43,572 nt of DNA from Planctomyces sp. SH-PL62 (GTDB lineage: Bacteria; Planctomycetota; Planctomycetia; Planctomycetales; Planctomycetaceae). The notes under the pieces were generated by a model. The model was given only the letters and a program-made list of their open reading frames with translations. It was not told the DNA's origin and did not search any database. Location: contig CAMDPX010000036.1 of NCBI GenBank assembly GCA_945905295.1, positions 1-43,572 of the forward strand. The letters are read 5' to 3'. Every line of letters begins with the position of its first letter. Position 1 is the stretch's first letter. Positions 10,855 through 40,607 of the stretch are shown here, one piece after another. A program made the translations under genes and the position numbers.

Positions 10855-11059
10855 CTCTGTCACTACCAATCCCGCGTCCGAAGAGCCCAGCGGCTGAGTT
10901 CCGCACAGGTCGTTCAAACGACGGTCAAAAAGAGGATTCCGCCAACCGGCCAAATCGCGCATCGCGACTGGAACCACCGGAACGTGGAAGGGGCGGACTA
11001 TAGCAAGCCACGCTCGCGAACGAACAGGCATTTCGCGTCTGTTTGAGCGAAGTTTTCCC

Positions 11060-11152
11060 GTAGGTTGGGACTCCGTCCCGACCGAGTTGGAACCCGGTCG
11101 GGACTGTCACTCAACTGCGTCGCGATGCGGTCGGGACGGAGTCCCAACCTAC
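11060..11152. repeat. Dispersed inverted repeat family P2 (intergenic copy)
   Basis: Arms 11060-11083 and 11129-11152 (GTAGGTTGGGACTCCGTCCC type) are exact 24-bp reverse complements, with a further partial copy inside. The same arms recur inside the coding sequences at 28365-28431 and 32860-32926. The right arm overlaps the 3' end of the VIT/VWA gene and provides its TAG stop. Confidence 0.95.
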
Positions 11153-13446
11153 GACTTGCCAGGGTCGGACTCTTCGGGATCGATTTGGTAAGTCGTTTCA
11201 CCGAGGTTGACCAGCACCGGTTCGTCGAAGGCGATGTACTTCGCGAGCGCCGTGTGTTTGGCGGCAAGATCAAAATACTCGCGGCTGAACTGGCGAATGC
11301 GGGTCGCCTTCTTGGCTTGCTCGTCGGTGACGGTTGAGTCTTGCCATTGGTTGTTCTTGCGGAAGAACGATTTCTGGCCGACTTGCCGGAGATTGGATTC
11401 GGCTTGGAATTTCTCTCGCAAAGCACGGCCGTCAATCGGAAGTCTGGACAACCCAGCCTTTTTGGAGGGCGCACCGCTAGAAGCACCAAGTCCGCCGGAG
11501 CCGGCACCTCCGGAGGCACCGGCCGGCGCGTTTTGCGCAGTTTGCAGTTGCCCCTTGAACGCACGCTGCTCGAAGCCACTGGCTCCGTCGGCTTTGCTAA
11601 GTTCACGCCGCGCGACCTCACTCGCGCGGCCGAAGTTGCTGGTGTCGGCCAACCGGACATTTTCATCGGCGAGGAAGCTCGTGTACGGCGTCATGATGCC
11701 GTGCTGAACCGAGAGGCGGACGAGTTCATCGACCAGTTCCTGGTTTTGCCCGCGCAGGTCGAGTTCGTCGATGATCTCGCCGATTCGGCGAGTCGCCCAC
11801 AATTTCTCGACGAAGCCAAACGTCTCGTCGTTCGACTTGGCGACGAAGTTGGCGGGGAAGATGAAGGTCTTCTTGTCGCCTGCGACGCCGGTCATGGTGA
11901 CTTTCGCGGCTCCCGGTTGACGATAACGGCCAACCCACACGAGTTGCTCGCCTTGGAAGAGGTCGGTCAATTGTCGCGGATAGGTGCGGCTGATGAGCGG
12001 AGTCGTCGATGCCGGCACGACGGTATCGAACTCGACGTTGAGCGCGATATCGGTCAGCACGGGGGAGCCGATCTTGCGATACAGCGTAGAGACCGATGCT
12101 TCGATGTTTTCGTTCGGACGAACGTAGACCGACTGGCCGCGATGATCGCGTGAGAGACGGTCGAGCAACCGGCTGTTGACGTCGAAGCCGACGCCGAGGT
12201 TGAAGATGCGAGCGTTGACCTTGTTCGCTTCTTTGGCCTTCGCGGCGATGCGTTGCTCGTTGACTTCACCGACCGTCGGGATGCCGTCGGTCAGGAACAG
12301 GACGTAGTTGGGTCGTTTCGGATCGGCCAGTTGATTGAGCGCCGCCTGCAAAGCCCCGTCGATATTCGTCCCGCCGCCAACGTACAGGCCGTCAGCGAAT
12401 CCGAGAGCGGCTTTGATGGTCGCTTCGTCGGCGCGTTGCAGTTCGGGACGGAAGCTCTCGACGGTCGAGTCATAAATCACGACGTTGAAGATGTCTTCCG
12501 GCCGGAGTTGTTGCAGCAGGAACTTCAGCGCACCGCGAGCTTGATCAAACTTCGGTCCGGTCATGCTGCCGCTGCGGTCGATGACGAACACGCAGGTCTT
12601 CGGCAATGGCTTCGCATCCGGTCGCACGTCGGGGCTGGCGAGCATCAGGAAGAAACCGTCTTCGGAATCCTTCGGCCGATAGCTCAGGACATTCATGCCG
12701 ACGGCTCCGCGCTCTGTACCGAACAGTAATCGGAAGTCATCGGGGTTGGAGACGTTGTGCAGCGTCATCTTGCAGACGGCGTGTCGATCATCCGGCCGCT
12801 GGACCTCGACAGCGTGCGTCGGGCTGTAGAGGTTCTTCAGCGGGTCGGAGGTTTCGACTCGGACGGTGACGTTCAATGTTTCGACCGGATGATGTGCGTG
12901 CTTGTGAGTGCCAATCGGCAACAACAGATCGACGACACCGCTCTCGCTGCGGAGCAATTGCTGATAACGAATCTCGACTTTCCGTTCGGCGTTCGGCGGT
13001 ACGGGGAAGACGCTCGTTTGGAACAACCCTTGGCCGAGATATTCGAGCAGCGCCGGATCTTTTCGCTGACGAACGATCGACTCGTAGATCGCGCGGGCTT
13101 CCTCTTTCTTCATCAGCTTGCCGGCGAGTTCCTTTCCATCGACCAGCAACGTGAGCTGACTGACCGCGGCGTTCTCCGGCATGGGGAAGAGCAATTGTGC
13201 TTCGAGCACTTGGCTGCTGACGTTCTGGAAGACCTGCGAGAGTTGCACGGTCGCGATCTGGTCCTTGATCGAGACGTTCATGTCCACCGACCGCACCTTG
13301 TAGAACGACGGCGGCGGAGCGGGACGAGTTGGAACCGGCCGAATGATCCGTGTCCCGTGGTCGATGATCACCACTTGAGCTTGAGCTAGGTTGGCAAACA
13401 GAGCCGCAAAGGCGGCGACGATGAGAGTCCAAAATCCTCGCTTCAT
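11149..13446 (-). CDS. Secreted VIT / von Willebrand factor A domain protein
   Basis: The 765-aa protein has a signal peptide (residues 1-23, cleavage after LAQAQ). A VIT domain (about 47-165, with AQLLFPMPENAAVSQL and EARAIYESIVRQRKDPALLE) is followed by a linking beta region. A VWA domain lies at about 283-450 with a complete metal site: D290xS292xS294, T360 and D387 (FLTDGIP). A long C-terminal part follows, with a Gly/Ala/Ser-rich low-complexity stretch near 650. Inter-alpha-trypsin-inhibitor-like VIT-VWA proteins are exported binding or adhesion proteins; some are sortase targets, but no LPxTG is seen here. The ATG is fixed by AAGGAG 9 bp upstream. Its stop codon comes from a palindromic element. 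Ligand unknown. Confidence 0.9.
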   Translation of the reverse strand: MKRGFWTLIVAAFAALFANLAQAQVVIIDHGTRIIRPVPTRPAPPPSFYKVRSVDMNVSIKDQIATVQLSQVFQNVSSQVLEAQLLFPMPENAAVSQLTLLVDGKELAGKLMKKEEARAIYESIVRQRKDPALLEYLGQGLFQTSVFPVPPNAERKVEIRYQQLLRSESGVVDLLLPIGTHKHAHHPVETLNVTVRVETSDPLKNLYSPTHAVEVQRPDDRHAVCKMTLHNVSNPDDFRLLFGTERGAVGMNVLSYRPKDSEDGFFLMLASPDVRPDAKPLPKTCVFVIDRSGSMTGPKFDQARGALKFLLQQLRPEDIFNVVIYDSTVESFRPELQRADEATIKAALGFADGLYVGGGTNIDGALQAALNQLADPKRPNYVLFLTDGIPTVGEVNEQRIAAKAKEANKVNARIFNLGVGFDVNSRLLDRLSRDHRGQSVYVRPNENIEASVSTLYRKIGSPVLTDIALNVEFDTVVPASTTPLISRTYPRQLTDLFQGEQLVWVGRYRQPGAAKVTMTGVAGDKKTFIFPANFVAKSNDETFGFVEKLWATRRIGEIIDELDLRGQNQELVDELVRLSVQHGIMTPYTSFLADENVRLADTSNFGRASEVARRELSKADGASGFEQRAFKGQLQTAQNAPAGASGGAGSGGLGASSGAPSKKAGLSRLPIDGRALREKFQAESNLRQVGQKSFFRKNNQWQDSTVTDEQAKKATRIRQFSREYFDLAAKHTALAKYIAFDEPVLVNLGETTYQIDPEESDPGKS

Positions 13447-13599: not shown

Positions 13600-13679
13600 A
13601 GGCGAGCGGGGCGGCGTCAGCCCCCCGGTGGTCACATTGGGCATCAAAGACCGGGGGGCTGACGCCGCCCCGCTCGCCT
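13600..13679. repeat. Full copy of palindrome family P1
   Basis: Perfect 30-bp arms 13600-13629 and 13650-13679 (AGGCGAGCGGGGCGGCGTCA start) with a 20-bp loop. It is located between the divergent VIT/VWA and thiS genes, immediately before the thiS ribosome binding site, so the transcript of thiS may carry the hairpin in its leader. Confidence 0.95.
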
Positions 13680-13906: not shown

Positions 13907-13916
13907 GTCCCAGCTT

Positions 13917-13970
13917 GTAGTGACCCGATTCATCGGGTCTTGCCGCTGACCGCATAAATGCGGTCACTAC
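13917..13970. repeat. Dispersed double-hairpin repeat family P3 (intergenic copy)
   Basis: The outer ends GTAGTGACC/GGTCACTAC enclose two small palindromes, CCCGATTCATCGGG and CCGCATAAATGCGG. The element is 54 bp and followed by GAGCG. The same element with the two inner hairpins exchanged occurs inside the coding sequence of kinase 1 at 15911-15964. Confidence 0.92.
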
Positions 13971-14024
13971 GAGCGCTGCGGCTCGACGCTCCCTTCGATC
14001 CACCACTCCTGTCGGAATTGAGTT

Positions 14025-15295: not shown

Positions 15296-18200
15296 ATGGC
15301 TTTGTCGCTGGATGACTTTTTAACACGCCTCAATGAGTCCGGCCTGCTCACATCGGCCGAGGTGCGTGGCATTCTCGACCAATGGCCGGCCGATCGTCCG
15401 CGGCCGGAGACTCAGACGTTCGCTCAAGAGTTGGTTCGTCAGAAACGGCTGACCAAGTTTCAGGCCGAGCAGATTCACGCTGGCAAAGGGAAGTCGCTGA
15501 CGCTGGGGAACTACGTCATCCTCGACAAGCTGGGCGAGGGGGGCATGGGGATGGTGCTCAAGGCGTGGCATCGCCGCATGGAACGAATCGTCGCGCTGAA
15601 GGTGATTGCTCCGAAGGTGGTGAAGGAGCCAAGTGCGCTCAAGCGGTTTCAGCGCGAGGTCATCGCGGCGGCCAAGCTGACGCATCCCAACATCGTTGCG
15701 GCCTACGATGCGGACGAGGCCAAAGGGACGCACTTCCTGGTCATGGAATATGTCGAAGGCTCGGACCTGTCGTCGTGGGTCAAAGAACATGGCCCGCTGC
15801 CGGTTGAACAAGCGGTGAACTGCATCATTCAGGCAGCGCGCGGGTTGGCGTTCGCTCACGACAAGGGGGTCGTGCATCGGGATATCAAGCCGCACAACTT
15901 GCTGCTCGCTCGTAGTGACCGCATTCATGCGGTCGGACCCGATGAATCAGGTCACTACGAGCGTGACGTCGTCAAGATTCTGGACATGGGGTTGGCTCGG
16001 ATCGACGGTGGCTTCGGCGGCAGCGCAGAGCACGCGGACCTGACGAAGTCCGGTGCCATGATGGGGACCGTCGATTACATGTCCCCCGAACAGGCGATGG
16101 ACAGCAAGCACGCGGATGCTCGCAGCGATATCTATTCGCTGGGCTGCACGCTGTTCTATCTGGTGACCGGCCATGTCGCGTTCGAGGCGGACACGGTGAT
16201 GAAGCGACTGACCGCTCATCAGAACGCACCGCCTCCGTCCCTGGTGGAACAATTGAGGTCCGTGAGCCGTGATTCGCAAGGCTCACAGAGTGCTGTTGCA
16301 CTGGACTCTGGACTCTCGACTCTGGACACGGTCTTCCGCCGCATGGTCGCGAAGAAGCCGGAGGATCGGCCGCAGTCGATGCTCCAAGTGATCGCCGAAT
16401 TGGAGCGATGTCTCACGAGCGGTTCGGCAACGATCTCGGTCGATTCACGTCCGAATCCGGGCAGCGTGTCGAGCGCGACAGGATTGGGAGCGAGTCCCAG
16501 CAACTCATCAAGAACGCAGGCGAGTCTTTCCGAGCGAGACGCCGAAACGATCGTCGCTTCCTCCAGCGACTCGAGGACCAGTCTGCCGAATGAAGCGACT
16601 GTCGTGTTGGATTCATCGGTGGTGAAGAGTCCTGCGACAGGCATGCCGGCAGCGTCGAACAAGTCGCGAAAGGCGATGCTGATTTCAGCAGCGACGGTCG
16701 TGGTGGTTCTGTTAGCGATCGTTGTGGCGATGAGCGGCAAATCCCCAAAGCCGTCCGACGAGAAGCTGGTGGCAAACAGTCCGAATCTCAATGCCCAGTC
16801 GTCCGAGTCGCCGGCGACGAACACAGAAGTCCGCGAGTCAGCCGAGCCGAACCGCTCGCCGATGGATACGGCATTGATGTTCGACGGCGACGACCGCGTC
16901 GAGATTCCATCATTGACGTTCGATCCGCAGGGCTCCTACACGTTGGAGGGATTCATCGCGTCGCCCGTCAAGGCGGACAAAGGAGCCGGGCTGGCCTTCG
17001 GCATGCCCGACCAGTCCTATCTGTCCTTCACTCGCTTGAACGATTGGCGGTGGGTGTATCAGCCTCAGAAACGAAGTGGGGGGGTTGAAATCGCGATTGC
17101 CGGCGCGGCGGCTCGGCCGGAACGGACGCATTTGGCCTGTGTGCGCGACGGGCACACGCATCGTTTGTTTGTGGGTGGCAAACTCTTTCACAAAGTCGGC
17201 GAGAAGCCATCGCCCGCCGCGGGCACGTCGCCATTTCTGATTGGCAGCGAATTTCGCGGCGAGATCGACGAGCTGCGCGTGTCGCGAGTCGCCCGCTACA
17301 AGGCGGACTTCGCGCCGCCGGCCCGGTTCGAGTCCGATGCCGACACGCTGGCTCTGTATCACTTCGACGAAGGCCAAGGGGACCAGCTCTTGGATTCCTC
17401 CGGCAACAATCATCACGGCAAGATCTCCGGAGCCAAGTGGGTACGGGCCGACGGCTCGACGATCGCTCCCGCACTCGCCAAAGCTCCGTTCGATGCCAAG
17501 CAAGCTCGCGCGCATCAAGAGGCGTGGGCCAAGCATCTGGGCACGACGGTCGAGACGACCAACTCGGTCGGCGCGAAGATGATCCTCCTCCCGCCCGGCG
17601 AGTTCTTGATGGGGACGGGAGACGATCAGCTCGTGGCCGCTCTGAAGGATGCCGACGACAAGCAGCGCGGCCCAGATGTCGCCAACCAGATTCGGAATGC
17701 CGAGCGGCCGCGACATCGAGTGCTGCTGACGAAGCCGTTCTGGTTGGGTGCCACGGAAGTCACGCTCGGCCAGTTTCGGAAGTTCGTCGAAGCGACGAAG
17801 TACCAAACGGGTGCCGAGAAACAACCTGTCGGTGACAAGCCCAAGACCTATCTGAAGCCCGGATACGAAGTCACCGACGAATCGCCGGTGTCCGAAGTCA
17901 ACTACGAGGATGTCGTCGCCTACTGCCGTTGGCTCTCAGAGAAGGAACAGACCACCTATCGCCTGCCGACCGAAGCCGAATGGGAATACGCCTGCCGAGC
18001 CGGCACGACCACGGCCTATTCCTGCGGCGACACGCTGCTCGATTCCCATGAGTGGTCGATCCTCAATTCCCAGGTGAAGGCTCAGGCGGTCGCGACGAAG
18101 AAGCCCAATCCGTTCGGACTGTTCGACATGCACGGCAACCTCTCCGAATGGTGCCAGGATCGGTTCGACGAACGCTGGTACGAGGCGAGTCCCTCGAACG

Positions 18201-20782
18201 ATCCTTTGAATAACGATCCCGGAAAGCACTTCCTCGTCATTCGCGGCGGCAACTGGGACTACAACGTGATCCTGCGCAGCGCGTATCGCTGGGCGATCAC
18301 ACCGGACAACCATGCCTACACGATCGGCTTCCGCGTCGTGCGCGAGATCGGTACAGCAGCGGTTGCTCCGGCGAAGAACGTCGCGAACCAGGACCAGACG
18401 CCGATTGGCGGCCGTTTCTCACTGCAACTCGATCCCAACGGGCGGATCGACATCCCGCTCAGGCTGCCCGCCAACTCGTCCGTCACTTACGAATTCGAGC
18501 TGACGAGAAAACCGCCCGATCCAACCAACCTCCACCACCAACTGGCGACGTTGATTCGCGGGAGTGATCTGAAGCAGTTTCAGGACAAATTGACGTTGTC
18601 CTATTATTCATCTCCGAGATTCTCGATCAACGCTCTCCCCGGCCGAGAGCGATTCTTCCTGGCCGCGACCGTGACCGAGACGAAGCTGAGACTGTTCATC
18701 AACGGCCTCCAAGTGACCGAAGATTCGCCGCCGGTGCCTGTCTCGATGAGCGATCTGAATTCCGTTTATCTCGGAATGTCACCAGGAGCGCCCTCGAATT
18801 TTCGAGCTTACGACGCGCCGCTGCATCGCTTCCGTCTCTCACGCGGTGAACGCTACTCGGCCGATTACGATCCTGCGGGGGAATGGCTGCCCGATGAGCA
18901 AACGCTCGTGCTTTACGACTTCCGCCGTGGCGGAACCGCCGACCAGGTGCTCGACCTCTCCGCCAACAAGAAGCACGGCAAGCTCGTCGGTGCGAAGTGG
19001 ATTCAGCCGGGCATGGCGGCCGTTCCGTCAACAGACGTTGATCGCGCCGCCGCGACCTGGGTGATCGCTCAGGGAGGAGACGTGATGGTGAGCGGCAAAC
19101 AGGGCTGGGTTGCCACGGTGAATGATCTGCCGGATGGCGATCTCGAAGTGCGGCTCATCAGGCTCAAGCAGCGGTTGTCTGGCGAAGAAGCTGATCTCGT
19201 CCCGTTGCGCGAATTGAAGCATTTGGAATTCGTGGGAATCGACAACACCCATCCGACGGCGGCGGGCATCACCGCGCTGGCTCGGCTGCCAAAGCTGGAA
19301 CGGGTGAGTTGCGGCGGCCAGCCACTGAGCGACGAACAAATGACCGCCCTGGCTCGGCTGAACAACACGACGAAGCTGTACCTGGCCGGGGCGCAATTGA
19401 AGTCCGCGCAATGTGCCTTCCTCGCCAAGTCGATGCCGCAAGTCGGAACGCTCAACCTGATGAATAACCCCTTGCTCGACGATGCGGCTCTGGCACCACT
19501 CGGCGAGTTGCGCAATCTCAAAACTCTGCAACTCCAGGGAACAAAGGTCACGGCCGCCGGCATCGCCAAGTTGCAACAGGCTCTGCCCAACTGCTCGATC
19601 GAATGGGACGGTGCCGCAACCTCTGCCACCGCGCCGATGACCACACCCGACGGCCGGATTGATTTGCTCGCACTCTTCGATGTGAAACGGGATGTTCTCG
19701 CAGGGGAATGGACTCGCGAGGCCAAGGGTCTCAAAGTGAAGCAGTCTGAAACGACCGTCTATGTGCCGCGGCTTCAGTGGCCGTATCAACCGCCCGAAGA
19801 ATACGACTACGAGATCGAGTTCACTCAGGGGAACGGCAACGGGACCGTCGAGCAACTTCTATCCGCTCAGTCTCGCTCGTTCGCCTGGGTGCTCAACTCG
19901 GCTCTGAAGGACGGTGTCAAAGCTGGGTTCGAAACGCTCGATGGAATGAATCTGGACAATCGCAAGGACGCCAGCATCATGCGTCCCAAACTGCTGGAGC
20001 CTGGCCGACGTTATCGCTCGCGCGTGGAGGTTCGCAAAAGACAGCTCCGCGCGTTCCTGGACGATGAACTGCTCGTTGAGTGGAGCGGCGACTTCCAACG
20101 TCTCGACATCATTCCACGCAACGCCCTGCGCGATAAGCTCCACTTGGGTCTCGCCGCCAACGACCGCGGTGCCCTGTTCCACAAAGTCACGGTTCGCGAA
20201 GTCAGCGGCGTGGGGAAGCTCACCTCTGGCGTGGCCGGCAGTGAAGCCAGCTCAGCGTGGACTGATTGGCTGGGGCCGAGGCTGAAACACGCGGACTTCT
20301 TCTCGCAATTCGATGGAAGGGTAGGTTGGCAGCGCGAAGGGGATGCCATCACGACGACTCAGGCCATTAGCGGCCAAGCGGTGTTGCCCGACAAGACCCG
20401 CAACGGATCCATCCGGCTCACCTACCTGTTGCGTGACTCCAAGGGCATTCAGATCAACGCCCGTGATCGCGTCACCAACGGCGAGCGCGACCTGTATGTG
20501 GCCCAAGACCACGGCACACAGATCAGCATCACCATGATTCGAGCCGGCATGTACAAGGTTCTCGTCAAAGAGCCAATCCCGGCGAGCATTCCGAAAGACG
20601 CCCAGCGGACGCTCGAATTTCGCATCGTCGGCGACACGCTGACGGCAACGTTCAACGGCTCGGTGGTGGCCACCGTGAAAGAGGCCACGCTGACCGAGGG
20701 GAACTTCGCGCTGGTCGCGCTCAAAGGAGTCCTGGTACAGAAGGTCGAGTACCAACTGCTCGATGAACCGATTGCAAAATAA
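15296..20782 (+). CDS. Giant receptor Ser/Thr kinase 1 with LamG, FGE-like and LRR ectodomains
   Basis: The protein is 1828 aa. A planctomycete-type N-terminal segment (1-70) precedes a PknB-like kinase (about 72-370): GEGGMGMV loop, Lys102, HRD 194-196, DMG 230-232 in place of DFG, and SPEQ. One membrane helix (about 461-481) follows a Ser/Thr-rich linker. The outside part has LamG-like domain 1 (about 526-722), an FGE-sulfatase-type domain (about 752-1012), LamG-like domain 2 (about 1037-1238), an LRR block (about 1245-1435) and two C-terminal beta-sandwich domains (about 1450-1640 and 1650-1828). The FGE-like domain lacks the catalytic Cys pair (RGGNWDYNVILRSAYRW), so it is probably a binding fold. 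A dispersed palindrome encodes residues 206-223 in the kinase. It probably senses carbohydrate or protein ligands and phosphorylates unknown targets. Confidence 0.9.
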   Translation: MALSLDDFLTRLNESGLLTSAEVRGILDQWPADRPRPETQTFAQELVRQKRLTKFQAEQIHAGKGKSLTLGNYVILDKLGEGGMGMVLKAWHRRMERIVALKVIAPKVVKEPSALKRFQREVIAAAKLTHPNIVAAYDADEAKGTHFLVMEYVEGSDLSSWVKEHGPLPVEQAVNCIIQAARGLAFAHDKGVVHRDIKPHNLLLARSDRIHAVGPDESGHYERDVVKILDMGLARIDGGFGGSAEHADLTKSGAMMGTVDYMSPEQAMDSKHADARSDIYSLGCTLFYLVTGHVAFEADTVMKRLTAHQNAPPPSLVEQLRSVSRDSQGSQSAVALDSGLSTLDTVFRRMVAKKPEDRPQSMLQVIAELERCLTSGSATISVDSRPNPGSVSSATGLGASPSNSSRTQASLSERDAETIVASSSDSRTSLPNEATVVLDSSVVKSPATGMPAASNKSRKAMLISAATVVVVLLAIVVAMSGKSPKPSDEKLVANSPNLNAQSSESPATNTEVRESAEPNRSPMDTALMFDGDDRVEIPSLTFDPQGSYTLEGFIASPVKADKGAGLAFGMPDQSYLSFTRLNDWRWVYQPQKRSGGVEIAIAGAAARPERTHLACVRDGHTHRLFVGGKLFHKVGEKPSPAAGTSPFLIGSEFRGEIDELRVSRVARYKADFAPPARFESDADTLALYHFDEGQGDQLLDSSGNNHHGKISGAKWVRADGSTIAPALAKAPFDAKQARAHQEAWAKHLGTTVETTNSVGAKMILLPPGEFLMGTGDDQLVAALKDADDKQRGPDVANQIRNAERPRHRVLLTKPFWLGATEVTLGQFRKFVEATKYQTGAEKQPVGDKPKTYLKPGYEVTDESPVSEVNYEDVVAYCRWLSEKEQTTYRLPTEAEWEYACRAGTTTAYSCGDTLLDSHEWSILNSQVKAQAVATKKPNPFGLFDMHGNLSEWCQDRFDERWYEASPSNDPLNNDPGKHFLVIRGGNWDYNVILRSAYRWAITPDNHAYTIGFRVVREIGTAAVAPAKNVANQDQTPIGGRFSLQLDPNGRIDIPLRLPANSSVTYEFELTRKPPDPTNLHHQLATLIRGSDLKQFQDKLTLSYYSSPRFSINALPGRERFFLAATVTETKLRLFINGLQVTEDSPPVPVSMSDLNSVYLGMSPGAPSNFRAYDAPLHRFRLSRGERYSADYDPAGEWLPDEQTLVLYDFRRGGTADQVLDLSANKKHGKLVGAKWIQPGMAAVPSTDVDRAAATWVIAQGGDVMVSGKQGWVATVNDLPDGDLEVRLIRLKQRLSGEEADLVPLRELKHLEFVGIDNTHPTAAGITALARLPKLERVSCGGQPLSDEQMTALARLNNTTKLYLAGAQLKSAQCAFLAKSMPQVGTLNLMNNPLLDDAALAPLGELRNLKTLQLQGTKVTAAGIAKLQQALPNCSIEWDGAATSATAPMTTPDGRIDLLALFDVKRDVLAGEWTREAKGLKVKQSETTVYVPRLQWPYQPPEEYDYEIEFTQGNGNGTVEQLLSAQSRSFAWVLNSALKDGVKAGFETLDGMNLDNRKDASIMRPKLLEPGRRYRSRVEVRKRQLRAFLDDELLVEWSGDFQRLDIIPRNALRDKLHLGLAANDRGALFHKVTVREVSGVGKLTSGVAGSEASSAWTDWLGPRLKHADFFSQFDGRVGWQREGDAITTTQAISGQAVLPDKTRNGSIRLTYLLRDSKGIQINARDRVTNGERDLYVAQDHGTQISITMIRAGMYKVLVKEPIPASIPKDAQRTLEFRIVGDTLTATFNGSVVATVKEATLTEGNFALVALKGVLVQKVEYQLLDEPIAK
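15911..15964 (+). repeat. P3 repeat inserted in frame inside kinase 1
   Basis: The 54-bp element CGTAGTGACC...GGTCACTACGAGCG is the same type as 13917-13970, with inner hairpins GACCGCATTCATGCGGTC and CCCGATGAATCAGG. Compared with kinases 2 and 3 it replaces a 5-residue turn (DAKGT) by 21 residues between NLLL and VKILDMG, without disturbing the frame. Confidence 0.93.
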
Positions 20783-21362: not shown

Positions 21363-24300
21363 ATGACGGATCCCCTGCCGACGACCAACTTCACCGGGAC
21401 GGAGCGCTTTGAAGTCGTCCGCCAGCTTGGCGCAGGAGGGATGGGTGTTGTTTATGAAGTGTTTGACAAGCAGCGCGATGCGCGGGTCGCGCTCAAGTTT
21501 CTGCCGCAGGTGGCTCCCGAAGCGTTGTTCGCGTTCAAGCAGGAGTTTCGCACGCTGGCGGATGTGTCGCATCCGAATCTTGTCGGGCTGTATGAACTGT
21601 TCTCGGAAGGGGAGCAGTGGTTCTTCACGATGGAACTGATCGACGGAGTCGACCTGCGGACGTTTATCCTCGGTGATGCGGCCGTCGATGCGCGGGTCTC
21701 GAATCCGAATGAGGTCACAGCGCTGGTGAGTCGCGTGTCGCACGACACCGACTGGGATGGCGATCAAACCGGACCGGCTCATCTTCTGCGGACAGGACAG
21801 GCTCCGGCCCCGTGGACCGGTCCAAGTCCGGTACTCGATGAGGGAGTTTTGATTCGTTTGCGTTCAACGCTGCGGCAGCTTGCGATTGGTCTGCGGGAGA
21901 TTCACTCGCATGGCTTGCTGCACCGGGACATCAAGCCGCCCAATGTGCTGGTACGGAAAGATGGGCGGGTCGTGGTGCTCGATTTCGGGTTGGCCTCCGA
22001 TCAGCACTTTGGGGAATCGAAGTCAAAGCAGATCGTCGGCACGGTGGCCTACATGTCCCCCGAGCAGGCCGAAGGGAAACCGCTGACGCCCGCCAGCGAT
22101 TGGTACAGCGTTGGTTCGATGCTGTATCAGGTACTGACCGGACAATGTCCGTTTGGCGGCGGCTCGAAAACGGTGATGAGCGCGAAGCGAACTCGCGACC
22201 CCGACGCTCCGCAAAAATTGAATCCCGTCGTGCCTGAGGATCTCAACAATCTTGCGATGGCGTTGTTGTCGCGCGATCCCTCGGCTCGGCCGAATGCGTC
22301 GGACATTCTGCGTTGGCTCGGAGTGAATGACGCTCCCTCCGCCGATGCGACCCAGCAGGATGCGTCCGATTCGGCCACGCATTTCGTGGGACGCAAAGAA
22401 CAGCTCGATCAGATGAATCGAGATTTTGAAGCAGTGCGTGCCGGCGGGACCGCTGTGGTTCTCGTTCGCGGCGAGTCTGGCGCGGGCAAGACCGCGCTGG
22501 TGCAACGCTTTCTCGAAGGACTTCCCAAAGATTTGGAGACAGTCGTTCTGGCCGGCCGTTGTTACGAACAGGAGTCGGTCCCCTTCAAAGCGTTCGACAG
22601 TCTCATCGACATGCTGACTCGGCATCTGGAGCGACTGCCACAGCCGGAACTCGCCTCACTGCTGCCGCGCGATGTCGCGTCGTTGTCGCGGATCTTTCCG
22701 GTTGTGCAACGCATTCCGGCGATCGCGCAGGCCCCTTCACGCATGGCGACCGTGCCCGATCACGTCGAACTGCGACGCCGAGCCTTCGCCGCGTTGCGGG
22801 AGATGTTCGCTCGGCTGGGGGACCGGCATCCGTTGATTCTGTTGATCGACGACCTGCAATGGGGGGACGTCGATAGCGCGAACCTGTTCAACGAGCTGCT
22901 GCAAGCTCCCGATCCGCCGGTGATGCTGGTGCTGGGAACCTATCGCGCCGAGGACGAACAACGGAGCGAATGCCTGCGACTGCTGGCGGCTTCGGCGACG
23001 ACTCCGTCTCCCGTCTCGCGCCGTGTGATCTCGCTGTCGCCGCTGACTCACGACGAGTCGTTGGAGTTGGCGATCGACTTGCTGCACCGCCGCGACCCGG
23101 CTGCTCTGGCCGAGGCCGAGCAGATCGTCCGCGAATCGAACGGCAGCCCGTATTTCCTCAGCGAGTTGGCGCATGATGTCCGCGACGGGTTTCACGAGTC
23201 GTCTTCGCCGGTAGCCGAACTCGCCAGAGTTCGGACGGATGACGATGTTCGGACGGATGGCGATCCGGCCCGAATTCTGGCGAATTCGGCTACGACCGCG
23301 CCGGAGAGTTTGAAGATTCGGCTCGATGACGCGCTGTGGCGACGCATCGAGCGTTTGCCGGAGAACGCTCGCACGGTTCTCGAAGTCTTGTCGGTGGCGA
23401 GTCGTCCGTTGCGGCTGGTCGATGCGCTCAAGGTCGCGCATGTCAGTGACTCGCACGCCGCGCTGACTCGCTTGCGGCACGATCGCTTTCTGCGCGCGAC
23501 CGGTGCTGGAGCCGACGAATTGCTGGCTCCCTATCACGACCGCATCCGCGAGACGTTCGTGAAACGACTACCCGCCGAGGCGCTGCGGAACCGGCATCTG
23601 ACGCTGGCCACGACGCTCGCGGCGGGCGGAGTCGCGGACGCGCAGACGTTGGCGATTCACTACGAAGGCGCGGGTGATCGCGAGTCGGCCGGCCGTCACT
23701 ACGCAGCGGCAGCGGATGAAGCGGGACGCGCGTTGGCCTTCGAGCAGGCGGCCAACCTGTATCGCAAGTCGCTCGAACAACGCCCCTCCAGCGGCACCGA
23801 ACGCTGCGCGTTGCTCGTCCGGTTGGCCGATGCGCTGGCGAGTTCCGGTCGAGGGATCGAGGCGGCGGAGCAATATCTCGCCGCGTCGGGATTGGCGGGG
23901 TCGGACGAAACGCTGATGTTGCAGAGCAAAGCGGGCTTCAACTTCTGCGCGGCGGGAGACATCGACTCCGGCCGTGAGGCGCTCGCGGGTGTGCTCACGC
24001 GATTGGGGATGTCCCTGCCCAAGACACGCACGCGAGCTCTCCTGTCATTGGTGCTCAATCGAGTCCGCCTCATCATGCGCGGTATCAAGTTTCGCGAACG
24101 ACCTGACTCGCAACTGACGAACGACGAACGGATGCGGCTGGATGTAACGTGGCAGGTGGCGACCGGATTGTTCGTCATCGACACGATTCGCGGCACCGAC
24201 TTCGCGACTCGCAATACGCTGCTGGCGCTGAAGACCGGCGAGCCGTATCGCATCGCCCGCTCGCTGGCTTGGGAGGCGACGCAAACTTCGATGGAAGGAG

Positions 24301-25322
24301 TCAAAACCAAGAAGACGACCTGCAAATTGCTGGCGACCGCCGATGAACTGGCTCAGCGATTGAATCATCCACATGCGCTGGCGATGGCTCTGATGGGCCG
24401 CGGCATCTCCGAGTTTTATTTCGGGAACTGGCGAGCCTCGACGGAGACCTGTGACCGCGCGACCGCCGCTCTCACGGAACACTGCACTGGAGTCGCCTGG
24501 GAACTCGACATGTCCAACGCCTTCGCCTACTGGGCGCTGTTTTGGCGGGGCGAGTTCGCGGAGATTCAACGCCGGTATCCGCGATTGATGGCGGACGCTC
24601 AACAACGAGGCGATCGACTGGCGGTCGCGAACTACACGACGTTCGCCGGCCCGTTCGCGTTTCTCCCGCAAGACGATGCCGCCGGTTTAGAGGTCGCACT
24701 GGCCGGAGCGATGGGAGATTGGTCGAAGCAGGACTTCCATGTGCAGCACTTCACCGCGCTGTCGGCTCAGACCTATCTGGAACTATCTCGCGGCCGATCC
24801 ATCGCGGCTTGGGAGCACATGCTGACTCAATGGCCGTCGCTCCGAGGTTCGTTCGTGCTGATGGTCGAAATCGTGCGGATCTACATGCACCACCTGCGAG
24901 CCGCCTCTGCGATCGCCGCCGCGTGTGAACTGCGAGCCTCTGGAAACCCAACCGCGAAGATCCCCGGCGGCGGACGCTCCTGGTCGATCGCCGACTTGGA
25001 AGCCGAAGCCGCTCGCTGGGCCAAGAAACTCGAACGCGAACGAGCGGCCTACGCGCGACCAATGGCCGCGCTGATCCGTGCCGCACTGGCTTTCAGTGCG
25101 GGCCAAACGAGCGCGGCGTGCGACCATTTGAAATTCGCTGCCACTCAGTTTCGACAAATCGAAGCCAACATGTTCTCCGCCGCCGCGCAGTTTCAACTCG
25201 GCCGCCTGATGGGTGGCGACGTCGGCCAACAACAACTGGCCGAAGCGGAACAACGCATGCGAGCCCAAAACGTTCTGAACCCCAATCGCATCGCCAACCT
25301 GTTCGCACCGGGATTTGGGTAG
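21363..25322 (+). CDS. Ser/Thr kinase - AAA ATPase - TPR signalling protein (PknK-like layout)
   Basis: The 1319-aa protein has no membrane helix. Kinase domain ~15-325: GAGGMGVVYE loop, Lys45, HRDIKPPN at 187-194, DFG 207-209, YMSPEQAEG. An AAA_16-type NTPase domain follows (about 340-700), with FVGRKEQLDQM at the start, Walker A GESGAGKT at 370-377 and Walker B LILLIDDLQWGD around 491-502. The C-terminal ~600 residues are helical TPR-like repeats (for example HYAAAADEAGRALAFEQAAN). This is the layout of multidomain kinase/ATPase regulators that integrate signals through oligomerising TPRs. A palindromic insertion encodes about residues 617-644. The kinase domain differs from the three receptor kinases and keeps DFG. 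No output partner is adjacent. Start ATG has a weak Shine-Dalgarno. Confidence 0.9.
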   Translation: MTDPLPTTNFTGTERFEVVRQLGAGGMGVVYEVFDKQRDARVALKFLPQVAPEALFAFKQEFRTLADVSHPNLVGLYELFSEGEQWFFTMELIDGVDLRTFILGDAAVDARVSNPNEVTALVSRVSHDTDWDGDQTGPAHLLRTGQAPAPWTGPSPVLDEGVLIRLRSTLRQLAIGLREIHSHGLLHRDIKPPNVLVRKDGRVVVLDFGLASDQHFGESKSKQIVGTVAYMSPEQAEGKPLTPASDWYSVGSMLYQVLTGQCPFGGGSKTVMSAKRTRDPDAPQKLNPVVPEDLNNLAMALLSRDPSARPNASDILRWLGVNDAPSADATQQDASDSATHFVGRKEQLDQMNRDFEAVRAGGTAVVLVRGESGAGKTALVQRFLEGLPKDLETVVLAGRCYEQESVPFKAFDSLIDMLTRHLERLPQPELASLLPRDVASLSRIFPVVQRIPAIAQAPSRMATVPDHVELRRRAFAALREMFARLGDRHPLILLIDDLQWGDVDSANLFNELLQAPDPPVMLVLGTYRAEDEQRSECLRLLAASATTPSPVSRRVISLSPLTHDESLELAIDLLHRRDPAALAEAEQIVRESNGSPYFLSELAHDVRDGFHESSSPVAELARVRTDDDVRTDGDPARILANSATTAPESLKIRLDDALWRRIERLPENARTVLEVLSVASRPLRLVDALKVAHVSDSHAALTRLRHDRFLRATGAGADELLAPYHDRIRETFVKRLPAEALRNRHLTLATTLAAGGVADAQTLAIHYEGAGDRESAGRHYAAAADEAGRALAFEQAANLYRKSLEQRPSSGTERCALLVRLADALASSGRGIEAAEQYLAASGLAGSDETLMLQSKAGFNFCAAGDIDSGREALAGVLTRLGMSLPKTRTRALLSLVLNRVRLIMRGIKFRERPDSQLTNDERMRLDVTWQVATGLFVIDTIRGTDFATRNTLLALKTGEPYRIARSLAWEATQTSMEGVKTKKTTCKLLATADELAQRLNHPHALAMALMGRGISEFYFGNWRASTETCDRATAALTEHCTGVAWELDMSNAFAYWALFWRGEFAEIQRRYPRLMADAQQRGDRLAVANYTTFAGPFAFLPQDDAAGLEVALAGAMGDWSKQDFHVQHFTALSAQTYLELSRGRSIAAWEHMLTQWPSLRGSFVLMVEIVRIYMHHLRAASAIAAACELRASGNPTAKIPGGGRSWSIADLEAEAARWAKKLERERAAYARPMAALIRAALAFSAGQTSAACDHLKFAATQFRQIEANMFSAAAQFQLGRLMGGDVGQQQLAEAEQRMRAQNVLNPNRIANLFAPGFG
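23211..23293 (+). repeat. Inverted repeat inside the kinase-AAA gene
   Basis: GTAGCCGAACTCGCCAGAGT (arm 23211-23234) and its partner 23270-23293 match at 22 of 24 positions. Between them GTTCGGACGGATG occurs twice. The translation VAELARVRTDDD...RILANSA is in frame and looks like an unstructured insertion in the ATPase region. Confidence 0.85.
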
Positions 25323-27449: not shown

Positions 27450-30400
27450 ATGCCGTTGACGGTCGAGCAATTTACTCAGCGATTGGCGTCGTCCGGCGTG
27501 ATGTCGGAGGACTCGTTGCTCGACGTGCTGTCGCCGTTGAACGGGAACGTGGCGGAATGCGCCGATGGCGAACAGCTTGCTCGCGAGTTGGTCAAGCAGA
27601 AGAAGCTGACCAAGTGTCAGGCCGAGCAAATCTACGCCGGCAAAGAGAAGTCGCTGACGTTGGGCAATTACATCCTGCTCGACAAGCTCGGCCAAGGCGG
27701 CATGGGGATGGTGCTGAAGGCGCAGCACAAGCGGATGAAGCGGCTGGTGGCTCTGAAGGTGATGTCTCCGGCAGCGGTGAAGACGCCGGACTCGTTGAAG
27801 CGGTTTCATCGTGAGGTCGAGGCGGCGGCCAAGCTGCGGCATCCGAACATTGTCGCCGCCGACGACGCGGACGAAGCGAAAGGGACGCACTTCCTCGTGA
27901 TGGAGTACGTCGATGGCAGCGATCTGTCGGTGCTCGTCAAGAAGCACGGGCCGCTGCCGGTCGAGCAGGCGGTGCAGTGCATCATTCAAGCGGCGCGCGG
28001 ATTGGAGTTCGCTCACGAGCAGGGAGTCATTCATCGCGACATCAAGCCGGCGAACTTGCTGATCGACGCCAAGGGGACGGTCAAAATTCTCGACATGGGG
28101 CTGGCTCGGATCGAGGGAGCGGTCGGCGGCAGTTCGGAAGGGGCGGGGCTGACGAGCACCGGCACGATCATGGGGACGGTCGATTACATGTCCCCCGAAC
28201 AAGCGATGGACACCAAGCACGCGGATGCGCGGAGCGACATCTATTCGCTGGGTTGCACGCTGTACTACTTGCTGACCGGCCGAGTCGCGTACGACGGCGA
28301 CACGATCATGAAGAAGCTGATGGCGCACCAGAACGCGCCGATTCCGTCGCTCGTTGATGCACATCGTAGGTTGGGATTCCGTCCCGACCCCGATGGCGCG
28401 GCGGCAGGTCGGGACGGAGTCCCAACCTACGATGCACTCAACGCTGTCTTCCGGCGGATGGTCGCGAAGCGGCCGGAGGATCGGCCGCAGACGATGACGC
28501 AGGTGATGGCCGAGTTGGAGCGTTGTCTCTCCGGCGGTTCGCCGACGATTGCGATTCAGCCGAACTCCAGCACGACGACGAGCGGCGTCGGCAGCGGGAA
28601 TGAACTGCAAGATTTCTTGAGACAGATCAGCGGCGGAGAGAGTTCGACGGCGACGAGTGCGGCTCCGGCTGGCTCGAAGGGAACGGCGGTGGCTTCTTCA
28701 TCGGGCGAGGCCGAGACGATGATTTCGTCGGCGGGTGAAGGAGGGACCGATCCGCGTACCGATCAGTCGCTGACCATTGAGCGGTCTGGCGAGCCGATGG
28801 GCGTTAGCCCTCGGACAGTCCGGGGGCTGACGCCCTCCGGCTCACCAAGTCACAAGATGAAACTCTGGTTCGGTTCGATCGCGGCGGTCGTCGTTGTCCT
28901 GCTCGCGATCGTGTTCGCCGTGCGCGGCAAGTCGGGCACGCTGCATCTGGAGATCACCGACGATCACACGGAAGTGACCATTGGCGAGACAGGCCGCGTC
29001 GTGAAGGGAGTGGCCGACGAAGAGGTCCGGTTGCCGCTGGGCGAGCATGTGTTGCACGTTGAACGGGGCGAACTGAAGTTCGATACGCCGGCAATCACGG
29101 TGGCGAAGGGTGATCCAATCGCGATCAAGGTCGAACGAGTCGGCAATCGCATTCGCGTGATGCGCGGCAACGAGTTTCTCACCGCAAAGGAATTGCCGAG
29201 ATCGAAATCGAGTGGCACGAAGGCGGGGAGTTCTTCGGCTCCAAACTATGCTCTGAAGTTCGACGGGCAGAGCCACGTCGAAATTCCGTCGCTGAAGTGG
29301 GACGGAAAGGAACCGGTCACTTTGGAGTTTGTGGTGTCGGTCGATGCTGAGGAAGCCGCCGTCGCCGGATCACTGGTCGTCGCCTCGTGGCCCTCTCCGA
29401 AGTCTGAAAAAGAATTGTTGGCCTATCGAATCAGCAACATCTGGGCGTTTGACGCGAGGCACTTGAACAAGCGCTGGATCAGTTCGGTGAATACTCTTCG
29501 TCCCAATGAGCGTGTGCTGGTGACCTGCATCTGGGACGGCAAGCAAACATTGATTCAGGCCAATGCGGATCAAGGAAACGTTTTTGAGGACATCTCAAGT
29601 CCGTTCGTGGTCGGACCGGGCTTGTGGATCGGCGGCTCGGAAAGCCACGCCAATGGTGCCATGCGTTTCCGAGGCACCATCGAGCAGGTCCGCGTTTCCA
29701 AAGGAGTCCGCACCGCGTTGTCGGCACCGCCGGCGGGCAAGCTCCCGAAAGACAGTTCGACGCTCGCGCTGTACCACTTCGCCGAGGGACGCGGTTCCGT
29801 CCTGAAGGACTCGTCCGGCAACAACCATCACGGCAAGATCGTCGGCGCGAAGTGGGTGAAGGCGGACGGGGCGGCGATCAATCCGACGGCAAGTCCTCCC
29901 GATGGACCACCGGCCTTTGTCCTGACCCGCGACAAGCAGCGAGTAGGCGCGTTTCAGACGCTGGCCGAGGCGTTCGCTCAACTCGGCCAGGACAACGTCA
30001 TCGAGATTCACGGCAACGGGCCGTTCGCGGTGGGCAACTTGAAGTCGGAAGGCAAGAACTCGCTGACGCTGAAGTCCGCTCCAGGCTACCGAGCGAGAAT
30101 CACTCCCACCGACCCTTCTTTTGATCCGAGGCGAGTCATTTTTCAGATGACTGTCGTTGAATCACTGCGCGTCGAAGGAATTGACATCATCAGCGATTTT
30201 TCGGCACTTTTATTCAATGGTTTTGGCAAATCGTGGCACATTCAAAACTGTCGGCTCGTCGTTCTGAATCAACAAGGGAGGGGCGCGATTCGGTTTGAGG
30301 GTTCAAAGTTGCGACTGGAAGACAGCCTGTTGCTTCTCGTTGAAATCGGAGGAGCAGTCGCACTCCCGCGTCGCGACGCTCAGCAAGTGGAAGTGGTCAA

Positions 30401-31947: not shown

Positions 31948-34900
31948 ATGCCTCTCTCACGCGATGAATTTACTCAGCAACTGACGGCCAGCGGACTGAT
32001 GGACGCTGCCGCCGTCACGGAAAGTCTTTCGAGTCTGCCGCCTGACAAGCAGCCGCAAGACGGCGAACAGCTTGCTCGCGAGTTGGTGAAGCAGAAGCGG
32101 CTGACCAAGTTTCAGGCCGAGCAACTTTATGCCGGCAAGGGAAACTCGCTGACGCTGGGGAACTATGTCATCCTCGACAAGCTTGGCCAGGGGGGCATGG
32201 GGATCGTGCTGAAGGCTCAGCACAAACGGATGAGGCGCTTGGTGGCGCTGAAGGTGATGTCTCCGGCGGCAGTGAAGACTCCGGATGCGTTGAAGCGGTT
32301 TCATCGCGAGGTCGAGGCGGCGGCGAAGTTGCGGCATCCAAACATTGTCGCGACCGACGATGCGGACGAAGCCAAAGGGACGCACTTCCTGGTGATGGAG
32401 TACGTCGATGGGGACGACCTCTCGGCGCTGGTGAAGAAGCACGGACCGCTACCGGTCGAGCAGGCGGTGCGGTGCATCATTCAAGCAGCGCGCGGCTTGG
32501 AGTTCGCTCACGAGCAAGGAGTCATTCATCGCGACATCAAGCCGGCGAATCTGCTGATCGACGCGAAGGGGACGGTGAAGATTCTCGACATGGGGCTGGC
32601 TCGGATCGAGGGAGCGGTCGGCGGCAGCTCGGAAGGGGCGGGGCTGACGAGCACCGGCACGATCATGGGGACGGTCGATTACATGTCCCCCGAACAGGCG
32701 ATGGATACGAAGCACGCGGATGCGAGGAGCGACATCTATTCGCTGGGTTGCTCGCTGTACTACTTGCTGACGGGCAAGGTCGTGTACGACGGCGACACGA
32801 TCATGAAAAAGCTGATGGCGCATCAGCACGGGGCGATTCCAGAGTTGGGCGATGCGCTTCGTAGGTTGGGACTCCGTCCCGACCCCGATGGCGCGGCGGC
32901 AGGTCGGGACGGAGTCCCAACCTACGATGCACTCGACACCGTCTTCCGCCGCATGGTCGCGAAGCGGCCGGAGGATCGGCCGCAGACGATGACGCAGGTG
33001 ATGGCCGAGTTGGAACGCTGTCTCTCCGGCGGCTCGCCGACGATTGCGATTCAACCGAACTCGAACACGACGACGAGCGGCGTCGGCAGCGGGAATGAAC
33101 TGCAAGATTTCTTGAGACAGATCAGCGGAGAAGAGAGTTCGTCCGCGACGAGCGCGGCTCCGGCTGGCTCGAAGGGGACTGCGGTGGCTCCGTCATCGGG
33201 AGAAGCCGAGACGATGATTTCGTCGCCGGGTGAAGGAGGGGCCGATCCGCGTACCGATCAGTCGCTGACCATTGAGCGGTCTGGCGAACCGATGGGCGTT
33301 AGCCCTCGGACAGTCCGGGGGCTGACGCCCTCCGGCTCACCAAGTCACAGGATGAAACTCTGGTTCGGTTCGATCGCGGCGGTCGTCGTTGTCCTGCTCG
33401 CGATCGTGTTCGTCATGCGCGGCAAATCGGGCACGCAGCCTCTGGAGATCACGGACGAACTCATCGAAGTGACCATCGGCGACACCGGCCGCGTGGTGCA
33501 GGGAGTCACCGCACAAGACCTCCGGCTGCCGCTGGGCGAGCATGTGCTGCACGTCAAACGGGACGACCTCGCGTTCGACACAGAGGCGTTCGAGGTGACG
33601 CCGGGAGAGAACGTCCCAATCAAAGTCGAACGAGTAGGCCGCCGTGTGCGAGCCATGCAGGGCAGCACGCTGCTCGGCCACAAGGAGAGTCGGAGGCCGA
33701 AGGACAAAGCACCGGCCAGCCCCGCGTTACCGGACTTCGCTTTGGAGTTCGATGGCAGCAGGAATTCGAAGGTCGATGTTCCGTTCTTGCGACTCCGGCG
33801 TGGCGGGCCGCTGACCCTGGAGGCCTATTTCACGCCGACCGTGGATCGAATCACGAACGTCAATCAGTTGCTCGGCTTCCAATTCAATTCGCTTTACATC
33901 AGCACGGAAACACAGAACTGGCAGTTGGTGTGGCAACACGGTGGTCAGAACGTGGTCTCGTCCCAGTCTGGTCCGTTTGTCAAAGGGCGACGAGTTCATG
34001 TTGCCGGTGTCATCGAAGATGGGGAAGCGCGACTCTTCGTGGATGGAAAACTGTCGTTCAGCTCACCGGTCAAGTTCGATCCGCAATCGGCACAACTTGA
34101 ACTGACCGATTTGCAGATCGGGGCTGGGTTCGAAGGCTTGATCGACACGGTGAGAATCTCCAAGGCCGCTCGTTACCGGAGCGACTTCTTTCCCGCGAAC
34201 AGTTTCCAACCGGATCAAGCCACGGTGGCTCTCTACGACTTCACGGAGGGGAACGGCAATGAGCTCAAGGATTCATCGGGTAACAACCATCACGGCAAGA
34301 TCGTTGGGGCGAAGTGGGTGAAGGCGGATGGCTCGGCGCTCTTCGCGTCGAACGATCCCAAGTTTCAGAAATGGGCGAAGGAAGTCGCAGCGATGCCCGC
34401 CGAGAAACAGGTGGCTGCCGTTTCCCAAAAGTTGATTGAGCTCAATCCTGGTTTTGATGGCAAGCTCGATCACTCCACGATTGAGAATGGCAACGTGATC
34501 GAGTTGTCGTTTAGGACTCACGCCGTCACCAACATCTCTCCCGTCCGAGCGCTGCCAAAGTTGAAGTCGCTCGCATGCGACGGCATTGGCGGTTCAGGAT
34601 TGCTCCGCGATTTGACTCCACTGGCTGGGCTGAAGTTGACGAGCTTGGGAGTTCAAGGAACGCAGGTCACGGATTTGTCACCGCTCCGAGGAATGCCACT
34701 GGAGATTCTGACCGTCTACGACACACCTCTGTTTGACGTTTCGCCGTTGGTTGATTGCAAGAACCTGATTTCTTTGGGACTCAATGTCACGAAAGTCACC
34801 GCCGCCGGGCTGGAGCATCTGCGGTCTCTGGCCAACCTCACTTCCTTGGATGTGCGGAACACGAAAGTCACCGCCGCCAGCGTGGCCAAGCTGCAACAGA

Positions 34901-39127: not shown

Positions 39128-39168
39128 AAGAAAATGTGCCCGTCGGGAGGAATCTCCCGACGGGCACC
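39128..39168 (-). terminator. Hairpin with U-run after subtilase B
   Basis: Stem 39155-39168 / 39137-39150 (GTGCCCGTCGGGAG) is followed on the minus strand by ATTTTCTTT. It starts 20 bp after the subtilase B stop and ends ~15 bp before the I9-like gene's start. Confidence 0.85.
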
Positions 39169-39187: not shown

Positions 39188-40507
39188 TCAGGGTGCTTGG
39201 ACAAGGCCCTTGCCGACCCGCGTTGCCGGGAACGGCAGAGGCTTGGCGGTCGCCAGGAGTTTGTTCCGGAGGCTCAATCCTCGGAGCGAAGTGGAAGTCT
39301 CCGCCCACAAGGCCGCGCATCCGGCGACATGCGCAGCGGCCGTGCTGGTGCCACTCCTGACAGCGTAACGAACTGGCATGGAAACGGAGGAAAAGACGTC
39401 GCGCCCCGGCCCGGCAATCTCGATCTTGCCGAAACTGGAAAACGAGGACGGACTCAAGTTCGTATCGAGCGAGGCCACCGACATGATGGTCGGTGAGTTG
39501 GCCGGTGCCCCCACACTGGCCCCGGCACTACCCGCCGGGGCGATCATTAACAGGCCGTTGTTCAACGCGGCCTGTCCCGCCGCCGTGTAGGCAGGCTGCA
39601 CCCCGGACTGTGAACCGAGAAACATCGCGATGACCTGGCAGCGGTTGGCGATCGCCCAGTTCATGCCATTCAAGACGCTACCCCCAACGCTCGACCCCGA
39701 ATTGCTCAGCACCTTCCCGGCGAAAATCGATGCTCGATGGGCGATGCCATACCGCGGCGTGCTGCCTGCCGGTGCCTTGGGGCCACACGCAGTTCCAATA
39801 CAGTGCATGCTGTGACCATGCAAATCTTGAACTGGCTGACCCACGAAAGTCTGGGTCTGCGCGGGAATCAGGCGACCGACAAAGTCCGGATGCCCCATGT
39901 CCGCACCGGTGTCGAGCACTGCGACCTTGATGCCCGCGCCGCTGCGGAGGCTCGGCGGAACTTTGCAAGCCGTGATCCCCCATGTATCGCCCAGGACCAG
40001 CGTCTCTTCTTCCAAGTCCACGTCCGCCTGTCCGGCCCCTCGCAGATCTCTGGCGATGGTTTCCGTGGCCCGCAGAAAACCGCGCAGATACTCGCTGACG
40101 GAGCCCTCGGACGCCCCGTACGCGAACACAAAATACTCGGGATCAATGGACTCGATAGGGCTGTCGGACGCGATATCCGATTGCGCGCTCATACTTCGTT
40201 GTTGCGCCGCATCGCCGCCGACGAGCGCCACCCCAATTTCCGGGAAGTGGACCGCATCGGCGTCGCCGATATCGTCCAGCGTCATCGCCTGGTTCTCAAA
40301 CTCGCGCGCGTCGGCGACGCGCATTCCCTGCGCACTCAGCGACTGCATTCCCGCCTCACCCGCCCCTTCCTTGAAGGTAATGAGATACCGACCGGTCTCA
40401 AGGCTGTCGCCGCCGCGTTCAAGTGCCGCGAGCATCAACTCTTCAACTTGCGACGAAGCTCGACTCGTGTTGGTGTTGCTCGATGGTTTCTGATCAATTC
40501 GTGCCAT
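39188..40507 (-). CDS. Subtilase (S8) copy B with degenerate active-site motifs
   Basis: The protein is 439 aa from the ATG at 40507 (GGAG 9 bp upstream); the frame is open to 40660. It aligns without gaps to copy A: an N-terminal I9-like segment (about 38-100, RYLITFKEGAGEAGMQSL) and an S8 domain (about 190-430). Triad residues are kept: Asp199 (VAVLDTG), His232, Ser388. However HGTH is HSMH, GTSMATPH is GTSTAAAH, and the oxyanion Asn327 of AAGN is Ser (PAGS). Ser at the oxyanion position usually weakens subtilase activity strongly, so this may be a pseudoprotease, binding decoy or altered-specificity enzyme. No signal peptide. The copy shares its upstream leader with copy A, so it arose by tandem duplication. 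Confidence 0.9.
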   Translation of the reverse strand: MARIDQKPSSNTNTSRASSQVEELMLAALERGGDSLETGRYLITFKEGAGEAGMQSLSAQGMRVADAREFENQAMTLDDIGDADAVHFPEIGVALVGGDAAQQRSMSAQSDIASDSPIESIDPEYFVFAYGASEGSVSEYLRGFLRATETIARDLRGAGQADVDLEEETLVLGDTWGITACKVPPSLRSGAGIKVAVLDTGADMGHPDFVGRLIPAQTQTFVGQPVQDLHGHSMHCIGTACGPKAPAGSTPRYGIAHRASIFAGKVLSNSGSSVGGSVLNGMNWAIANRCQVIAMFLGSQSGVQPAYTAAGQAALNNGLLMIAPAGSAGASVGAPANSPTIMSVASLDTNLSPSSFSSFGKIEIAGPGRDVFSSVSMPVRYAVRSGTSTAAAHVAGCAALWAETSTSLRGLSLRNKLLATAKPLPFPATRVGKGLVQAP

Positions 40508-40595
40508 GGTGATTTCTCCAATTGTTAGGTGAATTTCGTAAGGACAAGGACTCTTCACCTGACGTTGTGACAACGAATCTCTTTCCACTGGCCAC
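40494..40595 (-). pseudogene. Truncated stub of the I9-like gene between the two subtilases
   Basis: A GTG-started 33-codon frame begins VASGKRFVVTTSGE, matching the first 14 residues of the intact I9-like protein (MASGKRWIVTTSGD), with the same upstream GGAGG and terminator. After that the homology stops and the sequence becomes the leader of subtilase B; the stub's TGA overlaps the subtilase B start. It marks the junction of the tandem duplication. Confidence 0.85.
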
Positions 40596-40607
40596 GATGA
40601 GCCTCCG

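Follow-up and report, generated by a model that had tools for sequence, protein, structure and literature searches.

In-Frame Palindromic Repeats at Shared Loop Positions of Ser/Thr Kinases in a Planctomycete Genus

Introduction

How a dispersed palindromic repeat comes to be read as protein within the catalytic core of a Ser/Thr kinase is the question raised by one contig (C36) in the 8.6 Mb draft genome, in 476 contigs, of Planctomyces sp. SH-PL62. This contig, a stretch of 43,572 nucleotides, is called the window throughout. GTAG-tagged REPs, their dimers (BIME/REPIN) and copies lying inside genes are known, also from Planctomycetes including R. baltica (Di Nocera et al. 2013, PMC3733652); the same study describes different REPs at about the same recB site in two Xanthomonas species, and its main text reports intragenic REPs in DNA-repair and RNA genes. 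The Rickettsia palindromic elements (RPEs), as described in PMC10969869 and PMC3733652, are repeats of about 150 bp that lie in frame within protein genes, these being unrelated metabolic genes (Ogata et al. 2000, 2002). A first-pass annotation of the window, made from its letters alone, had proposed that a mobile palindrome which tolerates coding insertion sits in one of its kinases and may change the activity of the enzyme. In this paper, we follow that element through the genome, through related kinases and through other positions of the same kinase family, and we weigh the explanations for what is found there.

A Dispersed Palindrome Translated in Kinase 1

Kinase 1 (15296–20782, plus strand) is a Ser/Thr kinase with Laminin_G_3 and FGE-sulfatase domains, whose kinase domain matches PF00069 at 8.1e-46 (Pfam) with the insert present, and in which HRDIKPHN, DMG and SPE are all readable. 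Between the catalytic loop and the DMG motif it reads, with no stop, HRDIKPHNL-LLARSDRIHAVGPDESGHYERDV-VKILDMG, and kinases 2 and 3 of the window read HRDIKPANL-LIDAKGT-VKILDMG at the same site. The beta7-beta8 turn of kinase 1 (15902–15970, plus strand) thus has 23 residues, as against the usual 7 of kinases 2 and 3, a net gain of 16. The sequence and the frame are as the first-pass annotation had described them, and so are the gain and the absence of a stop; it gave five residues for the turn of kinases 2 and 3, which is read here as seven, and its length of 54 bp holds for the intergenic copy of the element at 13917–13970, whereas the core in kinase 1 is 47 bp (15912–15958).

The kinase 1 palindrome, here called element A, reads GTAGTGACC...GGTCACTAC and consists of two head-to-head units of 23 bases, each starting with GTAG and carrying an 8-bp hairpin. 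Unit 1 (15912–15934, plus strand) has the hairpin GACCGCAT/ATGCGGTC, unit 2 (15936–15958, minus strand) has one mismatch in its stem, and a single base at 15935 separates them. The inner hairpins had been taken as swapped relative to the intergenic copy, but they merely appear so because that copy is the same element in the opposite orientation, with an 83% match between 13913–13975, on the minus strand, and the kinase 1 copy. When the codons of kinase 1 (1–375) were shuffled, the stem score of the element was reached in 0 of 2000 trials.

A search of the genome for further copies, which had been proposed as a check, recovered the pattern GTAGTGACC-N20-50-GGTCACTAC with exact arms at 81 places in 8.6 Mb, and the reversed control pattern at none. 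Flanks were taken for the 62 distinct copies among these, and genes around them were called by a codon-usage caller trained on the window. Sixty copies lie outside called genes, with convergent neighbours in 31 cases, same-strand neighbours in 23 and divergent ones in 5, the last copy standing at the edge of a locus; the two inside called genes are that of kinase 1 and one in L272, which lies close to the start of a gene. In none of the other 61 is the coding signal of both flanks nearly as strong as around the kinase 1 copy, whose 47-bp core is the shortest of the 62. The copies have 8-bp stems with two-base loops, in keeping with GTAG-tagged REPs, whose stems have 6–13 bp and a short loop. 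Two GTAG-tagged REPs joined head to head make up element A, which is a miniature element of the BIME/REPIN type. It resembles the GTAG REPs of PMC3733652 in its tag, its short stem-loop and its dimeric arrangement, as well as in being mostly intergenic, with convergent or same-strand neighbours (54/60) and few copies in genes.

One Turn Filled by Five Palindrome Families

Kinase loci for comparison were picked by similarity to kinase 1 and not by the presence of an insert. Of 101 rows, 8 that repeated both the motif peptide and the turn DNA of another row were removed, including those of kinases 2 and 3 and one locus taken twice, which left 93 distinct turns, 77 of them 7 residues long. Seven of the 93 have 23 residues or more, and all seven belong to the genus and are palindromic. 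They carry five families, named by eye: A in the window, L040 and L118, B in L073, C in L068, D in L111 and E in L099. On a tree of 85 kinases built without the turn (85 of the 93 rows, short-flank rows including L118 being left out), the six long-turn rows require six changes. When the best candidates, at most 40 per genome with both strands listed, were scored for families B to E in six genus genomes, matches to B and D were found in 6/6 and to E in 5/6; those to C, in 4/6, extend mostly across half its length, and hence the dispersed status of C is weaker. Replacement of the DxxG turn was dropped as a signature of mechanism, as L073 keeps bases resembling the old turn after its insert. The sister kinases L099 (G005, with a hairpin pair) and L076 (G000, shorter, with a single decayed hairpin) have an E-like turn in common, perhaps an insertion that has been kept across species and is shrinking.

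Outside the genus, turn length also varies among the kinases of other planctomycetes (the motif was found in 73 of 80 loci), and long turns do occur there without a palindrome. At two such loci, L147 (3415) and L159 (3394), the turns are rich in Ser, 42 and 25 residues long respectively, and have no stem above threshold. The records L136 and L138, titled Candidatus Kuenenia stuttgartiensis, encode close relatives of these planctomycete kinases, and their titles look mislabelled.

Orthologues and a Related Insert in a Second Kinase

Alignment with orthologues demonstrates that the insert is not common to the group to which kinase 1 belongs. In a second species (G010), the orthologue L067 has an empty, ordinary turn, LMDGSGT, with flanks identical to those of kinase 1 at 139/150 and 136/150 positions; in a third (G005), L068 has a different palindrome, C, in the same turn. 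The three kinases form a group with support of 96/94 in a tree of 30 kinases. Between the kinase domains of the window and L067, dN/dS is 0.15, which suggests that the kinase 1 gene is still under constraint.

A kinase of G001, L040, has a near-identical insert at the same turn. Its 69 bases agree with those of the window at 66 positions, whereas the flanks agree at 110/150 and 97/140. A sister relationship of the two kinases is rejected by the AU test (p 2e-7), and so is descent of element A in both from a gene ancestral to them alone. GTAG stands at both outer ends of the kinase 1 copy, and the left tag in L040 is GTCG. The two inserts probably derive from one source, since they share the one-base spacer, and, as they are far more alike than their flanks and lie in kinases that are not sisters, recombination may have carried the insert from one kinase to another. 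With a 45-residue query spanning the filled turn, matches at E 1e-9 were obtained in 2 of 397 genomes of the class, G000 and G001; G008, which may or may not be among the 397, has a kinase with a related A-like insert at the same turn. Only 6 matches to element A are present in G001.

The proposal that the insertion is likely to alter kinase activity finds no support in the sequence comparisons, because turn length varies elsewhere, solved structures of PknB-type kinases align on both sides of the insert, and the dN/dS of 0.15 points to retained constraint. The filled kinase would be expected to remain active.

Other Filled Slots and the Excess in Kinases

The turn is one of several positions at which palindromes are translated. 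In 73 kinases of the genus (111.8 kb), 38 stems with a score of at least 13 were counted, in 27 kinases, as against 0.8 in the codon-shuffled null; as related kinases share some of them, 38 stems do not amount to 38 independent insertions. Thirty-five of the 38 fall in four slots, which are named from their position relative to HRD and from what we take to be kinase anatomy. The alphaG-alphaH loop holds 19 stems of six families, the linker after the kinase domain 10, the beta7-beta8 turn 4 (the filled turns of L040, L118 and L068, three of the seven, score under the threshold used for counting) and the activation segment 2; two more precede the kinase domain, and one in the N-lobe (L101) looks like chance yet was counted. 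The PknB alignment is gapped at both the beta7-beta8 turn and the alphaG-alphaH region. In-frame palindromes are seen inside the activation segment of the sister kinases L125 and L078.

In the window itself, a GTAGGTTGGGACTCC palindrome is translated in the alphaG-alphaH loop of kinase 2 (28362–28434; HRRLGFRPDPDGAAAGRDGVPTYD) and one of the same family in that of kinase 3 (32859–32927), and an intergenic GTAGGTTGGGACTCC palindrome with arms resembling theirs lies at 11059–11153. Family B, which is dispersed in all six genomes, is translated in the linkers of kinase 2 (28788–28846; GEPMGVSPRTVRGLTPSGSP) and kinase 3 (33283–33341), and a palindrome assigned by eye as B-like lies between genes at 13600–13679 (GGCGTCAGCCCCC). 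A further GTAG-tagged palindrome (23211–23293) is translated in frame within a kinase/AAA gene (21363–25322). At 39188–41989 there are two adjacent, similar minus-strand genes, presumably encoding subtilisin-type protease-like proteins, as judged by eye from their motifs; each has a short palindrome near one end (39136–39167 and 40618–40649).

Control DNA comprised 400 kb from six genus genomes, in long contigs picked regardless of content. It yielded 15 stems in 323.8 kb of non-kinase coding DNA, 91 in 55.5 kb of intergenic DNA and 7 in 20.7 kb of six kinase-motif genes, 4 stems at gene edges being left uncounted. The rate in kinases is thus about seven times that in other coding DNA (38 in 111.8 kb versus 15 in 323.8 kb). 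An earlier count, on the 66 kinases left once the repeated rows had been removed, gave 31 stems in 100.9 kb (p 4.5e-10 against the same control); in a separate pass over 66 rows, both anchors were found in 35. The kinase/AAA gene at 21363 was excluded from both counts. In G000 DNA around the element A copies, the copies themselves excluded, 5 stems were found in 147.6 kb of coding and 37 in 28.3 kb of intergenic DNA. Genes other than kinases that contain translated palindromes encode an epimerase, DUF1553, radical SAM and DUF1501 proteins. No stems were found in 95 distinct kinases from outside the genus (156 kb), a contrast that is partly expected because palindromes are rarer there overall, with 9 in 178.7 kb of whole loci from other planctomycetes versus 117 in 400 kb from the genus.

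Candidate Transposases

The genome has 13 matches to Y1_Tnp, and at these 13 loci, in a draft of 476 contigs, element A was not found beside a Y1_Tnp gene. One of them, in L018, is a REP-associated tyrosine transposase by NCBIfam NF047646, scoring 176 bits where the cut-off is 80, and GTAGGGTGGGAC repeats stand on both sides of it. The Y1 transposase of L019, at 58 bits, lies under that cut-off and matched no solved structure at E 0.001; it is bracketed by GTAGGTTGGGACTCC palindromes, of the GTAGGTTGGG family that kinases 2 and 3 contain; this family has at least 82 matches in the genome with both strands counted (best 40 of 169 candidates scored). Neither gene is flanked by element A. Long palindromes also bracket L015 and L017, and in L016 they occur at each end and once inside.

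Several features of these loci were observed in passing. The Y1 transposase genes of L016 (721–1863) and L017 (1423–2403) have a C-terminal stretch that matches DnaA, and palindromes of about 99 bp starting with GGGGTCGGGT stand at their ends; a palindrome that by eye is similar to the latter lies within a kinase-motif gene in L289. In the N-terminal region of the L019 transposase (1417–2223), the stretch VGTESQPT resembles half a repeat of its own REP family in translation.

How the Loops May Have Been Filled

The explanation that we favour, and consider likely, is that REP elements moved by tyrosine transposases persist in genes only when they are in frame and in permissive loops. Palindromes of numerous families abound in the genomes of the genus, and those of some families lie on either side of REP-associated tyrosine transposases, their presumed movers; the palindromes would land widely across the genome. 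Against such a role of the transposases stand the 13 Y1_Tnp loci with no element A beside the gene and the score of the L019 transposase below the cut-off. Those falling within genes would survive if they were in frame, free of stops and in a loop tolerating extra residues, as the beta7-beta8 turn seems to do with 16–27 of them. Besides this turn, a large kinase family would supply suitable slots in the alphaG-alphaH loop, in the activation segment and in the linker that follows the domain, and different families would therefore have filled the same slots repeatedly, through tolerance rather than benefit. The filled slots would presumably be translated along with the kinase, so that apparently selfish DNA repeatedly becomes protein within one enzyme family. 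Of the mobile palindrome first proposed for this locus, the dispersal and the in-frame insertion are borne out by the searches, and its movement would be ascribed to transposases.

Loop swapping by gene conversion, in which a palindrome entered once and the filled turn was then copied among paralogous or foreign kinases with HRDIKP and KILDMG coding DNA as homology arms, is a real possibility to which we give a little less than an even chance, and it can be combined with the favoured transposition. It would suit the window and L040, whose inserts are 96% identical between flanks of 73% and 69% in kinases that are not sisters, as well as the core, the shortest of the 62, whose spacing L040 shares and the occurrence of the insert in G001 with its few matches to element A, but it leaves several unrelated families in one turn unexplained. 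Repeated filling of the same positions could also arise if the DNA target preference of a transposase coincided with conserved kinase DNA, the slots being hotspots at the DNA level. Such a preference, here inseparable from structural tolerance, is in our judgement unlikely, as the slots differ in DNA and one slot is shared by unrelated families, which presumably have different transposases.

We think it similarly improbable that the inserts were retained for an advantage which their added peptides or mRNA hairpins give to the kinase, through regulation or partner binding. The kinase excess, in the earlier and the fuller count alike, and the E-like turns in sister kinases of two species are in line with a benefit; yet an insert-free orthologue, L067, exists, unrelated peptides occupy one slot, and the excess may reflect tolerance alone. 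An ordinary kinase insert that is palindromic by chance, or an artefact of assembly, might be suspected from the fragmented draft assemblies (476 contigs) and from the long non-palindromic turns of L147 and L159. Both are barely credible, and a chance palindrome or conserved insert was rejected, given the 81 copies of element A, the absence of a comparable stem among 2000 shuffles, the filling of the same site in separate assemblies and the orthologues that do not have the insert in common.

Relation to Known Systems and Significance

Like the Rickettsia RPEs, the palindrome of kinase 1 is a repeat lying in frame within a conserved gene. Compared by description, the palindromes of the genus differ from RPEs in being 47 to about 110 bp long, partly GTAG-tagged, enriched in kinases and planctomycete. 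They differ also from what is reported in the main text of PMC3733652, where kinases are named once, in the title of a reference, in that many families here fill shared slots of one kinase family. Among openly licensed papers, we found none that reports REPs in the loops of kinases, nor any in which many palindrome families repeatedly fill the same slots of a single kinase family.

Coding palindromes, which are best known from Rickettsia, are extended here to one planctomycete signalling family. With several unrelated palindromes in one kinase turn and an empty orthologue alongside, the genus offers a natural, replicated experiment on enzymes absorbing foreign peptide, and makes the question of whether protein-coding palindromes are tolerated or useful directly testable. 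A more far-reaching view, tentative and in our estimate rather doubtful, is that REP transposition in the genus constitutes a standing source of new kinase sequence, with loops being filled, exchanged and eroded and some inserts becoming regulatory; if this were true, an expanded signalling family would have been diversified by mobile palindromes.
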